DNA of 64,000 nucleotides from Candidatus Undinarchaeales archaeon (GTDB taxonomy: Archaea; SpSt-1190; JASMDC01): positions 8,455 through 72,454 of the forward strand of contig JASMDC010000018.1 of the NCBI GenBank assembly GCA_030753015.1. Direction: 5' to 3'. How positions within the stretch are numbered: the first letter of the stretch is position 1; each line of letters begins with the position of its first letter. Shown here piece by piece: positions 10,556-15,532 of this stretch. A model generated the notes under the pieces. It was not told the origin of the DNA. It was given only the letters and a program-made list of their open reading frames with translations, and did not search any database. Position numbers and translations under genes: made by a program.

Positions 10556-10578
10556 ATAACGCGTGAACGGTGGACACC

Positions 10579-12033
10579 ATGGATAGACGACTGATAGCTG
10601 TATTTACTCTCTTCCTGATAGCTGGACTTGCTATGGCAGCCCCTCGGGTCCCCACGGCCGATGGCAACATCGAAGGTATCACCATCAGCGGGAGTGTCAC
10701 AACCGATCCTGATCCGATCCCGACGATGGAGTTCGGGGCGGCGACGCACTCGCGGGATCCCTGTGATAAGCATACTGAGGGGGCGTGCACGGGAGACACC
10801 AATTGCAAGTGGAAAGCCGGGGAGACCACCCCTGAGGGGGATGTGCTCCCTGCCTCGTGCATTTCGGATGGGAGCGAAATGGGGGAAGGGCCAGCGACGG
10901 CTGGCGGATCCATGATCAAGGTCATGCTCAACGGTATCGCCGCAGATGCTGATGGCGAGGCCAACCTCTTCATCTCCGGATTCGGCCAGGCGACACTCCG
11001 CAGTGATTCGCACAGTACGATCCTGCTGCCCGCAGGAACGGACTCGGCGAACCTAGAGGTGGCGCACGAATCATTCCCTCAGGGCCAGGCCACCCTCACC
11101 GTGTGCATCAATAAGACGGCTTGCCCGGACTGGAGCGCCGAGTGCGCCGCCTGCAAGCACAAGCAGGTGACGATCGGCACTACTACCTACGATGACACTG
11201 GTAATGTCGTCGACATAGACAGCCAGCCGCCCATGATCTCCTTTGACGCGGGGCAATTCAATGCCGATCCTGACTGGAACATGAACCTCCTCGAGGACGT
11301 GACCGCGAACATCGTCGTGATCGAGTTGGACTCACCCTGGCAGATGAACTGCCGGTTCGTCGGGGTCGATGCGAACAATGCTCAGAACGACTCCATGTGC
11401 GCCCCTGGCGTGTTCGAGCCCAACGTTTGCGAGGGGCGGCAGGCCGCCACGCCCCCCGAGGGCGCGAAGGTGAAGATAACCATCGGGAAGGCGATGGCCC
11501 TCAACGGCTGGAAGGAAGGACGCTACGAGATCCATTGCCACGCTTGGGACTTCGCCGGTGGTGGAGACTCACAAGGGAACACCGGGACCGAGTGGGTCCA
11601 GGGGTTCCAGGTGGGGACCACCACACTTGTCACTCCGCCTCCACCCCCCGAGACCCCCCCTGATGTCCCACCCGAGGGTACTGTACCCCCTGAAGGTTCG
11701 GGAACTGCCGAGCCTCCCGCTCCGACCGACGCGGGAGGCCTCCCCATACCTACCGGGACACCCGGCCCCGGTGAACCTGAGCCAACCGCGACCGATAAAC
11801 CGATCCAGCCGGCCCCGGCCACCTGCGGCGACAACGTCTGCCAGCAGGACGAGAGCCAGGAGAACTGTTGCAATGACTGCGGTTGTCCCGTCGGATGGAG
11901 CTGTTCGGGTGGCGTGTGCGCCGAGTCCTCACCCCCCACACCCAAGCCGCCGGCCCCCAACACCGCCGTCGTCGCGGTCATTGCCATACTCGTGGTCGTT
12001 GGTGGCTTCTACGCCCTCGGGCTGAAGAAGTAG
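10579..12033 (+). CDS. Secreted, C-terminally anchored surface protein with Pro-rich stalk and a Cys cluster
   Basis: A 484-residue protein with a signal peptide (IAVFTLFLIAGLAMAAP), an extracellular region with several Cys (about residues 55-350), a Pro/Thr/Glu-rich stalk (about 355-415), a compact Cys block (CGDNVCQQDESQENCCNDCG followed by CPVGWSC), and a final membrane helix ending GLKK. A similar Cys block occurs in the small membrane protein at 44334-44687. The layout matches a surface protein standing off the membrane on a rigid stalk. Function is unknown. ATG 10579 fits the downstream TATA copy; the GTG at 10570 is the alternative. The next gene begins 15 bp later in the same frame, so the three genes to 15532 may be co-transcribed. 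Confidence 0.75.
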   Translation: MDRRLIAVFTLFLIAGLAMAAPRVPTADGNIEGITISGSVTTDPDPIPTMEFGAATHSRDPCDKHTEGACTGDTNCKWKAGETTPEGDVLPASCISDGSEMGEGPATAGGSMIKVMLNGIAADADGEANLFISGFGQATLRSDSHSTILLPAGTDSANLEVAHESFPQGQATLTVCINKTACPDWSAECAACKHKQVTIGTTTYDDTGNVVDIDSQPPMISFDAGQFNADPDWNMNLLEDVTANIVVIELDSPWQMNCRFVGVDANNAQNDSMCAPGVFEPNVCEGRQAATPPEGAKVKITIGKAMALNGWKEGRYEIHCHAWDFAGGGDSQGNTGTEWVQGFQVGTTTLVTPPPPPETPPDVPPEGTVPPEGSGTAEPPAPTDAGGLPIPTGTPGPGEPEPTATDKPIQPAPATCGDNVCQQDESQENCCNDCGCPVGWSCSGGVCAESSPPTPKPPAPNTAVVAVIAILVVVGGFYALGLKK

Positions 12034-12048
12034 GCGGGAACGGGCCCC

Positions 12049-13581
12049 GTGGCGTTCCTCTGGACAGGAGGGGCTGGTAGCGGCGGGTGCGCGGTGTGCC
12101 GGGCCTTGCGCCCGGCACTCCCGACCTATCCGGAAGATCCATCTATCGATGAGGTAGTGGCCCTTCTCGATAGTGTCCCTTTGAACGAGGAACTGGTGCT
12201 CGTCGGCGAGGAACCAACCCGAAGAGAGGACCTCGCTGATCTGGTGCGTACAGTTCGAAAGGAACGCCCTGGCGCGATCGTCCGCATCGTGACCGATGCT
12301 GCACGGTGTGCGGACCGCGCGTACGCGACCTCCTTATCGGAGGCGGGCGTTGACCGGTTCACCGTGCGCCTCTTCGGTCCTCGTCCCGCGGTCCACGATG
12401 CCGAGACAGGCACACACGGGAGCTTCGATGCCAGTGTGGCCGGGATACGCACGCTCGTCGCCCTTGGCCTCTGGGTCGAGGTCGAGGCCGTAGCGACACG
12501 ACGCGCCCTTCCCCATCTTACCGAGACAGCTCGGTTCATCGCCACATCGCTGCGTGGTGTTGCACAAGTTCTTGTACGCAATCCCCTGTGGGGCGACAAC
12601 GGACTGGTCCGAGGAACGTCCCACAAGGTGCATCCGCACGAAGCCTACCCACCGGTGGACATGGCGGCAGATATCATCGCTCACCACGATATCCCAGTGC
12701 GGCTAGAGGGCTTCCCCTTCATCGTGACCGGCGGGAAGGCGCCTTACCCGTTGACCGACAGCAAGCTCGCCGGTTGGCCCATAGGGCTCGCCCTGGAGGT
12801 GATCGCTATGGAAGAGGGGCTCAAGCCCGCAGCCCGGGTATCTCTTGATCTGGAACGTACCAAGACCCTAGCAGGCTTCTGTCGCGGCCGTGGGTTGACA
12901 TTGGAACAGGCGAGCTTCCGTCATCGTTTCGGTCCCAACGAGGCAGGCCTGCGCGAAGACTCGTCCGATCCCCGGGCGAGGCTCGTCTATTGCTATCTGG
13001 CGCCGGAGAAGGCCGCAGCGAAAGCGGTTCGGGACGCCGATGCAGCAGGTGATGATGATGCTCTGGGCGAAGCCCTCGGGTACCCGGCGTGCTGCCGCAG
13101 GTTCTACGCCCGGAACGTCACCGCAGGACATCACCCCGACCTGGCCATGGCCGCATACAACGAGGGACCAGCGGACACATATCCTTTCGAGCTGAACACC
13201 CTGTCCACATACATAACAGGCCTGGTGTTCCACCAGCCACATACCTATACCTGTGCCCCGAGCCTCCGGATGGCGCGTGATCTGATGGCCGCTCTTCGTC
13301 GAAGTGAGCCTCTCCTGGCTACCGCCGTGGAGCACGCCCTACGATGCCATGTAGTGTACGCGTCCCCGGCCAGCCGCATCTCCCTGTGGGGCCGCCGTAA
13401 GGGTGGTCGCATAGAGGTCGAGAACCTCATCCCATTCGGCGACGCTATCCGTCCGGACCTTGCGAAAGTGGATACTGTGGAGCTGGTAGAAGATGCCGTC
13501 ATGCTCCGTGCAGGGGAGAGGGTGATCGCTAGGATAACTGCTCCTGGTGGGGTGCGGCCTCTGCTCGCTACCTTTGAATAA
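12049..13581 (+). CDS. Degenerate radical SAM-fold protein fused to a DUF483-type domain
   Basis: A 510-residue cytoplasmic protein from a GTG start. Residues about 1-240 follow the radical SAM barrel pattern: a start strand, LVLVGEEPTRREDL in place of the usual TGGEP motif, VRIVTDAARCAD where TNG normally sits, and HDAETGTHGSFDASVAGIR. However, the CX3CX2C iron-sulfur motif is incomplete: GAGSGGCAVC has the second and third Cys (C14, C17) with Gly10 in place of the first. From about residue 300 it resembles DUF483 (ALGYPACCRRFYAR). No SPASM tail follows; a SPASM-like Cys set opens the next gene instead. It sits 15 bp after the surface protein gene and 10 bp before the B12 radical SAM gene. 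Whether it binds a cluster is unknown. Confidence 0.65.
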   Translation: MAFLWTGGAGSGGCAVCRALRPALPTYPEDPSIDEVVALLDSVPLNEELVLVGEEPTRREDLADLVRTVRKERPGAIVRIVTDAARCADRAYATSLSEAGVDRFTVRLFGPRPAVHDAETGTHGSFDASVAGIRTLVALGLWVEVEAVATRRALPHLTETARFIATSLRGVAQVLVRNPLWGDNGLVRGTSHKVHPHEAYPPVDMAADIIAHHDIPVRLEGFPFIVTGGKAPYPLTDSKLAGWPIGLALEVIAMEEGLKPAARVSLDLERTKTLAGFCRGRGLTLEQASFRHRFGPNEAGLREDSSDPRARLVYCYLAPEKAAAKAVRDADAAGDDDALGEALGYPACCRRFYARNVTAGHHPDLAMAAYNEGPADTYPFELNTLSTYITGLVFHQPHTYTCAPSLRMARDLMAALRRSEPLLATAVEHALRCHVVYASPASRISLWGRRKGGRIEVENLIPFGDAIRPDLAKVDTVELVEDAVMLRAGERVIARITAPGGVRPLLATFE

Positions 13582-13591
13582 GGAGGATCTC

Positions 13592-15532
13592 ATGAGCGAC
13601 GCGCCATCTGAGGACGGTCGCGTGTTCCGCGGTACCGTCGCTGAGCTCGCTGATGCTATCGCCGATATGGTGGACGTCGGTGTGCCCGTTCAGTTATCCC
13701 TCGAGGTCCCTCCGGCGGACCGGACCCCTGCTCTGGGGCGCCGCCTACGGGACGCTCTCACAGCGTTGCGCGAGGGCGGGATCTCCGTCCAGATGCGTAC
13801 GCCTCTCCCCCTCTGCCTTCTCGGTGCCGGGGACCCGGCCTGGGGTATCGATGTGCCCACGTCATGTGATGGGTGCAAGGACGCCTGGACAGTTGAGTAC
13901 GGACGCGTGGTGCTATGTCGAGTCGCCGATAGGTGGTGCGGTCCTCCGCGCGCCTCCTTCCCGAGCGCTACTGCAGTGGCCGATTACGCTCGCCTCTATC
14001 GCGAGGCCGCACCTGTTCCCGACGGGTGTCGGACCTGCCGTCACTGGGCACGCGGGACCTGCCACTGGGGCTGCCGGGCGTCACCCCGCTCGTTCGCACC
14101 TGTCCGGCGGGCCGCAGGCAAGCGGATCACCCTGGTGTGGCCTCCCACCGTGGACGGTACCGCACCGCGCCCCTCGCTCAACCTCGCTTACCTGACCGCG
14201 GCACTGGAGCATGCCGATCCGTCCCTTGAGGTGTCCTGCATCGATACCAACCTCGTGCTTGACCTCGATAACGTCATCACCGTACCACTCGCCGAGGCCC
14301 GGCGACACCTTTCACACACTCTCTCGCTCATCGAGCGGACCCGGCCCGACATACTGGCCGTTGGTGCATGGACCTCCAATCTCCCGTTCGCTCTGGAGCT
14401 GGTCCGTGCCTTCAGACCGCGCCATCCCGACGTGCCCGTTGTGATGGGCGGCTATCCCGCCACCGAGGGGCCGGTCGAGCTCCTCTCCATCTTGTCGGAG
14501 GTCGACGTGCTCGTGCGTGGCGAAGGCGAGGCCACCCTCCCTGGTCTCGTGGCCCGGTTAATCACGGGACGGCCCATCGACGACGTGCAGGGGCTGTCCT
14601 ACCGCAGCGGGTCCAAGGTCGTACACACGCCGCCGGCGGTACCCCTCAAGGACCTGGACGCGTTACCCTTCCCCTCCTACGAGCGGTTCGTGGGTGCCCG
14701 GCCCGGTCGCGCGGTGACCGTGAGCACAAGCCGCGGTTGCCCATTCTCTTGCACCTACTGCTCCAACGAGAAGATGTACCAGGCCATGCGCCAGAACTCG
14801 CCTGAGTACGTCGTCCGTGAACTTGCCGACCTCCACAAGCGGTGGGGCGTGACGCGCATCGAGTTCTCCGACAACCTCTTCACGGCAGATCCACACTGGG
14901 TCGCCCGGTTCTGCGAGGTCCTCGATGAGAAGGGTTCGGACCTCGTGTGGACGTGCTCGTCACGTGTGGACACGCTGACCACTGACCTCATAGACCGGAT
15001 GCGCGCGGTCGGCCTGGAGAGCATCTATCTGGGCCTGGAGAGCGTGGTCCCGGACAGCCTGCGGTTCATGGGCAAGACCGGAGATCCCACTAAGTACGTT
15101 GAGCGGGCCCGGCGGCTCATAGCCCATGCCGCGTCCTCCAGTGTCGGGATGAGCGTCGGGGGCATCGTAGCCCTCCCGCACGAGGACCGCGCGGATATGC
15201 AGGCCACCGTGTCGTTCCTCGAAGAGATGGTCACGACCAATGCGCCGTACGTGAAGCCCAACCTGTTCTCTCTCATCCCCTTCCCGGGAAGTCCCCTCTG
15301 GGACGCTGTCCAGCGGGGCGATCACGCTCTGCTCCCGGTGAGGAACCCTGCCTTCTCAATCTGGAACGGCGGGCTGTTCCGTGAGCTCTACTGGCACCTA
15401 CCGTGGGTGGTTCCGGGAGCGTTCGAGTTCGCCAACGACCATCTCGAGCAGAACGAGGTGGAGCGGTTCGTCATCGAGGCTCGTGCAAGGTTGCAGGAGC
15501 TTGCACCAGAAGGATTCGAGGCGAAGTTCTGA
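13592..15532 (+). CDS. B12-binding radical SAM protein with an N-terminal SPASM-like cysteine domain
   Basis: A 646-residue protein; AAGGAGG at 13580-13586 fixes the ATG at 13592. Residues about 60-165 hold a SPASM-type arrangement: PLCLL, then C92-C95-X8-G-X4-C109, and later C146-X2-C149-X7-C157-X3-C161. Residues about 170-320 are a cobalamin-binding-type Rossmann domain (LNLAYLTAALE, AVGAWTSN, VVMGGYPAT). A canonical radical SAM domain follows, with C383, C387 and C390 in TSRGCPFSCTYCSNEK. B12 radical SAM enzymes catalyse methyl transfers or other radical chemistry; the substrate here is unknown. A SPASM-like unit in front of a B12 radical SAM enzyme is atypical, because SPASM normally follows the barrel. 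It is tightly coupled to the preceding degenerate radical SAM gene. Confidence 0.85.
   Translation: MSDAPSEDGRVFRGTVAELADAIADMVDVGVPVQLSLEVPPADRTPALGRRLRDALTALREGGISVQMRTPLPLCLLGAGDPAWGIDVPTSCDGCKDAWTVEYGRVVLCRVADRWCGPPRASFPSATAVADYARLYREAAPVPDGCRTCRHWARGTCHWGCRASPRSFAPVRRAAGKRITLVWPPTVDGTAPRPSLNLAYLTAALEHADPSLEVSCIDTNLVLDLDNVITVPLAEARRHLSHTLSLIERTRPDILAVGAWTSNLPFALELVRAFRPRHPDVPVVMGGYPATEGPVELLSILSEVDVLVRGEGEATLPGLVARLITGRPIDDVQGLSYRSGSKVVHTPPAVPLKDLDALPFPSYERFVGARPGRAVTVSTSRGCPFSCTYCSNEKMYQAMRQNSPEYVVRELADLHKRWGVTRIEFSDNLFTADPHWVARFCEVLDEKGSDLVWTCSSRVDTLTTDLIDRMRAVGLESIYLGLESVVPDSLRFMGKTGDPTKYVERARRLIAHAASSSVGMSVGGIVALPHEDRADMQATVSFLEEMVTTNAPYVKPNLFSLIPFPGSPLWDAVQRGDHALLPVRNPAFSIWNGGLFRELYWHLPWVVPGAFEFANDHLEQNEVERFVIEARARLQELAPEGFEAKF

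Follow-up and report, generated by a model that had tools for sequence, protein, structure and literature searches.

Two adjoining forward-strand genes of a Candidatus Undinarchaeales archaeon, here called A (12049..13581, 510 amino acids) and B (13592..15532, 646 amino acids), may be a pair derived from the archaeal His-Xaa-Ser (Hxs) toolkit for peptide maturation, in which A would be a dead partner subunit and B the catalyst, a reading that we consider an even call. They lie in the 64,000-nucleotide stretch of contig JASMDC010000018.1 that was analysed (hereafter the window, to which coordinates without a prefix refer). A joins a pseudo-radical S-adenosylmethionine (SAM) barrel to a DUF483-like domain, and B joins a SPASM-like module to a B12-binding and a radical SAM domain. 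It is because genes for the module and for DUF483 recur near Hxs genes elsewhere that A and B are taken as re-used Hxs parts. The searches covered 394 archaeal genomes and two phyla; two contig scans used short peptide patterns, a kind of scan that distant relatives escape. The codon-position base composition is of the coding type for both genes, somewhat weaker in A.

Gene A: a decayed HxsC-family barrel

The barrel of A (residues 1-220, 12049..12708) is matched by Pfam Radical_SAM over residues 13-143 (7.6e-9) and starts with G10-S-G-G-C14-A-V-C17 (12076..12099), where the family has C-NN-x-C-xx-C. As noticed in an earlier, sequence-only reading of this DNA, CX3CX2C is here missing its first cysteine and has kept the other two (GxxxCxxC), so that A lacks the complete motif for the SAM [4Fe-4S] cluster by which membership of the radical SAM family is judged. 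The degeneracy goes well beyond this one residue. When A was scored against 14 HxsC-family relatives, it had lost ten of the 16 invariant alignment columns (C10, N11, N12, G54 of GGE, N83, G183, C225 and the CxxC-x5-C tail) and retained six (C14, C17, E55, T57, G124 and P223); the first Cys and the two Asn of the cluster motif are present in all 14 relatives. Within the barrel GGE has become GEE, TNG has become TDA and GNA has become DNG, while just past it PxC reads PFI, and all four Cys of the HxsC auxiliary tail (PxC ... CxxC-x5-C) are missing. The losses cluster at the SAM and auxiliary cluster sites. A sequencing error at the first Cys is an unlikely explanation, since ten invariant positions are gone together.

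In NCBIfam, A is best matched by HxsC4 (2.3e-18) and HxsC (4.7e-17), and the rank of these two HxsC models at the top of the 30 families matched argues for descent from HxsC; the scores, 66.5 against a cut-off of 500 and 61.8 against 267.9 bits, are far below what these models demand. By profile ranks and alignment, A is a decayed HxsC-family protein, HxsC-derived by origin and not an HxsC proper. The HxsC maturase itself (TIGR03977, NF038332), to whose family the barrel of A belongs by best profile match and alignment, has intact relatives in the same genome, in other archaea and in bacteria; unlike HxsC, A has neither the SAM-cluster Cys, nor the SAM-site motifs, nor the auxiliary Cys tail, and carries an added DUF483. 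A also resembles the pseudo-SAM/SPASM family TIGR04347 (pseudo_SAM_Halo), which is likewise radical SAM-like but pseudo according to its NCBI name, although this match is weak (6.7e-5) and does not reach the cut-off (22.3 versus 525 bits).

An AlphaFold2 model of A (predicted local distance difference test, pLDDT, of 85) has the partial TIM-barrel fold, its residues 1-219 resembling the radical SAM barrels of NifB (Z 18.9) and viperin (Z 18.1), and the barrel fold is thus predicted to be intact. This intact frame, combined with the pattern of loss, suggests that A has been retained for a role other than SAM cleavage.

DUF483 and the origin of gene A

The DUF483-like domain of A (residues 245-510, 12781..13578) aligns over its full length with nine other DUF483 proteins (alignment A2), while the Pfam DUF483 score of the C-terminus (11.7 bits) is under the cut-off of 25. 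Both family motifs, LGYPxCC and HxPCxxxC, are recognisable: A reads LGYPACC, with the invariant pair Cys348-Cys349 at 13090..13095, and HQPHTYTC, with His398...Cys402 at 13240..13254 (PHTYTC for the PCSxxC of the family). The Cys-to-His swap in the latter recurs in two Woesearchaeota proteins (L124 and L126), and the last Cys is kept in A; that the domain holds a metal site would be a guess. Pfam states no function for DUF483, and neither do the titles and abstract text of the papers found on it.

The sequence-only reading had DUF483 take the place of SPASM in A. The domain is indeed present, but the replacement does not hold, as intact homologues have DUF483 and an auxiliary segment of their own. 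Two Aenigmatarchaeota proteins of 635 amino acids (L108:8068-9975 and L109:299-2206, the same genes as L066/L067) contain CNNNCIHC, an auxiliary segment (PFC ... CxxC-x5-C) of the one-cluster (twitch) type and DUF483 in one chain, and adjoin further HxsC-like genes as well as a second DUF483 gene. They are homologues of the kind that the earlier reading had named as contrary to its own proposal. Since these chains have all three Cys, the auxiliary segment and DUF483, the domain is better seen as an addition: judged by them, it joined an intact enzyme and did not displace SPASM, A losing its auxiliary segment afterwards.

Radical SAM and DUF483 also occur together in a Myxococcales protein (L129). 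In three further proteins, from Deltaproteobacteria and Anaeromyxobacter (L123, L128 and L134), a region without CX3CX2C is followed by a Cys tail and DUF483; its resemblance to HxsC is weak (hhalign, E 7.7e-4, probability 25) and in register at the tail. Loss of the SAM cluster ahead of DUF483 may thus have been more than one event. The three are candidate parallel radical SAM pseudoenzymes. A long DUF483 protein of Anaeromyxobacter (L122:415-3258) has C-x5-C-x2-C at the site of a possible radical SAM motif and no Pfam radical SAM match. In open reading frames of about 590-616 amino acids from four genomes (G400:C11, G401:C3, G192:C7 and G395:C31), each half resembles the HxsC portion of the query, so that they are apparent tandem HxsC-HxsC fusions.

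Gene B and its SPASM-like module

ATG 13592 is the likelier start of B, given the strong Shine-Dalgarno sequence AAGGAGGA directly 5' of it (13581..13594 including the start codon), rather than GTG 13547, where the open reading frame opens and which would give 661 amino acids. With A ending at 13581, the two genes then follow head to tail without overlap, 10 bases apart. The B12-binding domain (14279..14548; Pfam PF02310, 3.9e-14) is followed by a radical SAM domain (14720..15220; PF04055, 5e-21) with an intact CX3CX2C (CPFSCTYC, 14738-14761), which is the arrangement that characterises B12 radical SAM enzymes and which had been recognised correctly from the start. B nevertheless scores under every curated NCBIfam cut-off, the nearest families being ApyD, BchE and TIGR03975, and even its best match (ApyD, NF050148, 2.1e-49) is far below the cut-off. 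It shares both domains and the intact motif with this class and differs from it by its N-terminal SPASM-like module. The genome encodes many B12 radical SAM enzymes; it measures 3.85 Mb and has 84 radical SAM matches, against 0.6-1.1 Mb for nine other genomes of the phylum.

The module occupies about residues 6-163 of B (13607..14080) and has nine Cys (PLPLC, CxxC, x8-G-x4-C, C, CxxC-x7-C-x3-C). The SPASM Cys pattern is CX9-15GX4C ... CX2CX5CX3C ... C, to which the module comes near with its spacings of x8 and x7; the C-x8-G-x4-C and C-x2-C-x7-C-x3-C elements proposed earlier are confirmed, with PLPLC and another C-x2-C preceding them. Single-sequence searches found relatives in L074 (E 4.6e-10) and L075 (4.2e-6), the former being too good a match for a chance pattern, and profile searches added others in G089, G268, G196 and, with three proteins, G321. 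In total the family (alignment A1) was found in six other archaeal genomes among those searched, where its hosts are radical SAM-SPASM proteins or, in L090, a DUF362 protein. The family pattern is PLPxC ... CxxC-x-E-x-F-x-V-x2-G-x4-C ... GP ... CxxC-x6-C-x3-C, and in one group of genomes (f92) the final Cys residues are reduced.

Aligned with SPASM-type radical SAM proteins (hhalign), the module has its Cys in register (E 2.7e-4, probability 42); one member of its family matches TIGR04085 at a sub-threshold 0.0039, and the C-terminal half of a radical SAM protein in L156 (Pfam 2.1e-7) matches the module profile at 6.5e-7. The N-terminus of B has no usable match in Pfam, NCBIfam or the PDB sequences, SPASM not being recognised and TIGR04085 not matched by B, and the module does not match the HxsB profile (hhalign). 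A single-sequence fold model of it (pLDDT 46) is too poor for use. On its Cys spacing, close to that of SPASM/twitch domains, and on these alignments the module is best called SPASM-like, the library matches being sub-threshold. Those domains are C-terminal extensions of the radical SAM barrel (PMC10470005, PMC9012708), whereas the module of B precedes a B12 radical SAM enzyme. The module has its own counterpart of the last barrel strand (ISVQMRTPLPLC) and A already holds one (VPVRLEGFPFI), which means that the two duplicate rather than complement each other; by its homologues and its nine-Cys pattern, the module is a family separate from the short Cys tail of the HxsC family, to which the ancestor of A belonged.

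Apparent module matches in the Undinarchaeales genome were set aside, as they seemed to be a thioredoxin-like protein and fortuitous hits. In the DUF362/ferredoxin protein of L090 (1193-2830, genome G075) the module is at the C-terminus and an HxsC gene lies beside it; a DUF362-like ferredoxin gene is also present in the Hxs locus of G123.

Hxs context

All other confident module hosts (G075, G089, G196, G268, G321 and G327) have their module gene near HxsB, HxsC or HxsD genes. In G196, G321 and G268 a single locus holds the module, DUF483, HxsC, HxsD and a His-Xaa-Ser repeat precursor, and in G196 and G268 HxsB is found within this shared locus as well. The HxsB proteins of G196 (397 bits) and of the Undinarchaeales genome (418 bits) both pass the NCBIfam cut-off of 370 bits. 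Relatives of DUF483 occur in 11 of the 394 genomes, this one included, and their co-occurrence with the module is beyond chance (p 1e-5, or 2e-4 without this genome). Among 35 named DUF483 loci of archaea and bacteria, 12 contain HxsB, HxsC or HxsD, Elusimicrobia and Chromobacterium among them (a raw count, with no background rate). In a Chlorobiaceae protein (L127:6547-9591) B12-binding, radical SAM and C-terminal DUF483 domains form a single chain, which links parts retained in A and in B. The L127 cluster also has two sulfatase-maturase-like radical SAM/SPASM genes. In L110, and similarly L118, a B12 radical SAM gene lies about 6 kb from DUF483, in what appears by eye to be a polysaccharide locus.

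The Undinarchaeales genome has an Hxs locus of its own (L042:6703-13100), on contig 40 and not on the contig of A and B, with three HxsC-like genes, HxsB, a repeat peptide and another HxsC; the peptide is HxsA3-like, with the His-Xaa-Ser repeat SHGSHGSHASH. An HxsC gene of the Undinarchaeales genome has an open reading frame of 1209 amino acids with 176 Cys (L043:1967-5596) close by, and prepilin-peptidase-like genes were seen by eye within archaeal Hxs loci (L105:1987-3024, L107:1261-2331 and L089:5256-6443).

Upstream of A lies a gene for a secreted Cys-block protein (10570..12033, + strand), which the earlier reading had suggested as a target while calling this a guess. That caution was justified: none of its three long paralogues in other parts of the genome (C51, C95 and C117) lies close to a radical SAM match, which makes the protein a weak candidate and probably not specific to the pair. 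An Hxs-type peptide encoded elsewhere in the genome is a possible substrate.

Proposed roles and alternative explanations

If A and B do work together, the catalytically dead HxsC-family barrel of A would most likely bind and present the substrate, a role that the sequence-only reading had also suggested, or act as a scaffold, while B would be the catalyst, probably one that methylates carbon or forms a C-C bond in a peptide or protein. The module, a mobile part of the type found in Hxs loci, would dock the substrate or the partner, or relay electrons, possibly through iron-sulfur clusters. Precedents exist for several of these elements. ApyD is a B12 radical SAM enzyme that yields beta-methyltyrosine in a peptide through C-methylation (PMC10635010), and PapB is reported to carry out intermolecular electron transfer, likely via an auxiliary cluster (PMC10470005). 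AprD4-AprD3 likewise consists of a radical SAM enzyme and a partner protein (PMC5461906); unlike A, AprD3 is an NADPH-dependent reductase and not a decayed radical SAM protein. The sequences themselves show the decay of A, its intact ancestor, the module and DUF483 families with their Hxs context and the intact motifs of B, whereas the binding of A to B, the iron-sulfur clusters of the module, the peptide nature of the substrate and the chemistry are inferred.

Several observations weigh against the derivation of a working pair from Hxs parts. No second A-B pair was found in the 394 archaeal genomes, the two phyla or the contig scans, and a contig scan with A alone, by short peptide patterns that miss distant relatives, gave no relative. 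No HxsA-type precursor was found in the window, and the pair lacks the HxsA and HxsB in the same locus by which an Hxs system is recognised. In the co-occurrence test, three f92 genomes are one family and the p-value ignores relatedness. Finally, with two of its three SAM-cluster Cys kept, A could have some residual cluster binding.

The alternative that survives best, rather unlikely though we consider it, is that A and B are neighbours but independent, B being a B12 radical SAM enzyme that acts by itself in the metabolism of small molecules, lipids or the cell surface. The pair has been seen once, such enzymes are many in this genome and as a class not all modify peptides, and no precursor peptide is encoded nearby. 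On the other hand, the module of B is elsewhere found near Hxs genes and A is of the Hxs type, only 10 bases, with a Shine-Dalgarno sequence, separate the two genes, and L127 joins a B12 radical SAM enzyme to DUF483. Less probable still is that A is alive, two Cys and another ligand holding a cluster for a reaction of its own beside that of B: C14, C17, E55 and T57 are kept and the barrel is predicted to be intact, but the joint loss of CNN, the second G of GGE, TNG, GNA and four auxiliary Cys is what is expected once SAM binding is no longer selected. It is very improbable that the pair arose by the division of a single radical SAM-SPASM ancestor whose SPASM part was transferred to B, as the sequence-only reading had proposed from the missing auxiliary segment of A, the SPASM-like spacing at the start of B and the adjacency of the genes, since intact homologues of A have their own auxiliary Cys segment next to DUF483, A and the module each have a last barrel strand, and the module forms a separate family, which six other genomes have as a fusion to DUF362 or to whole radical SAM-SPASM proteins.

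Implications

Beyond the proposed partnership of a dead A with a catalytic B, a wider reading can be put forward tentatively, and with less confidence: DUF483 and the SPASM-like module would be unrecognised Hxs components, separable and passed among radical SAM proteins, which would here have been rebuilt as a new kind of maturase, with a radical SAM pseudoenzyme that offers the substrate to a B12 radical SAM enzyme carrying a transplanted auxiliary-cluster module. If this is true, auxiliary-cluster modules can leave their barrel of origin, and a radical SAM barrel can decay and still last as a working partner. DUF483 would then have a testable role in the His-Xaa-Ser systems, which are poorly understood and would for their part gain a B12-dependent branch.

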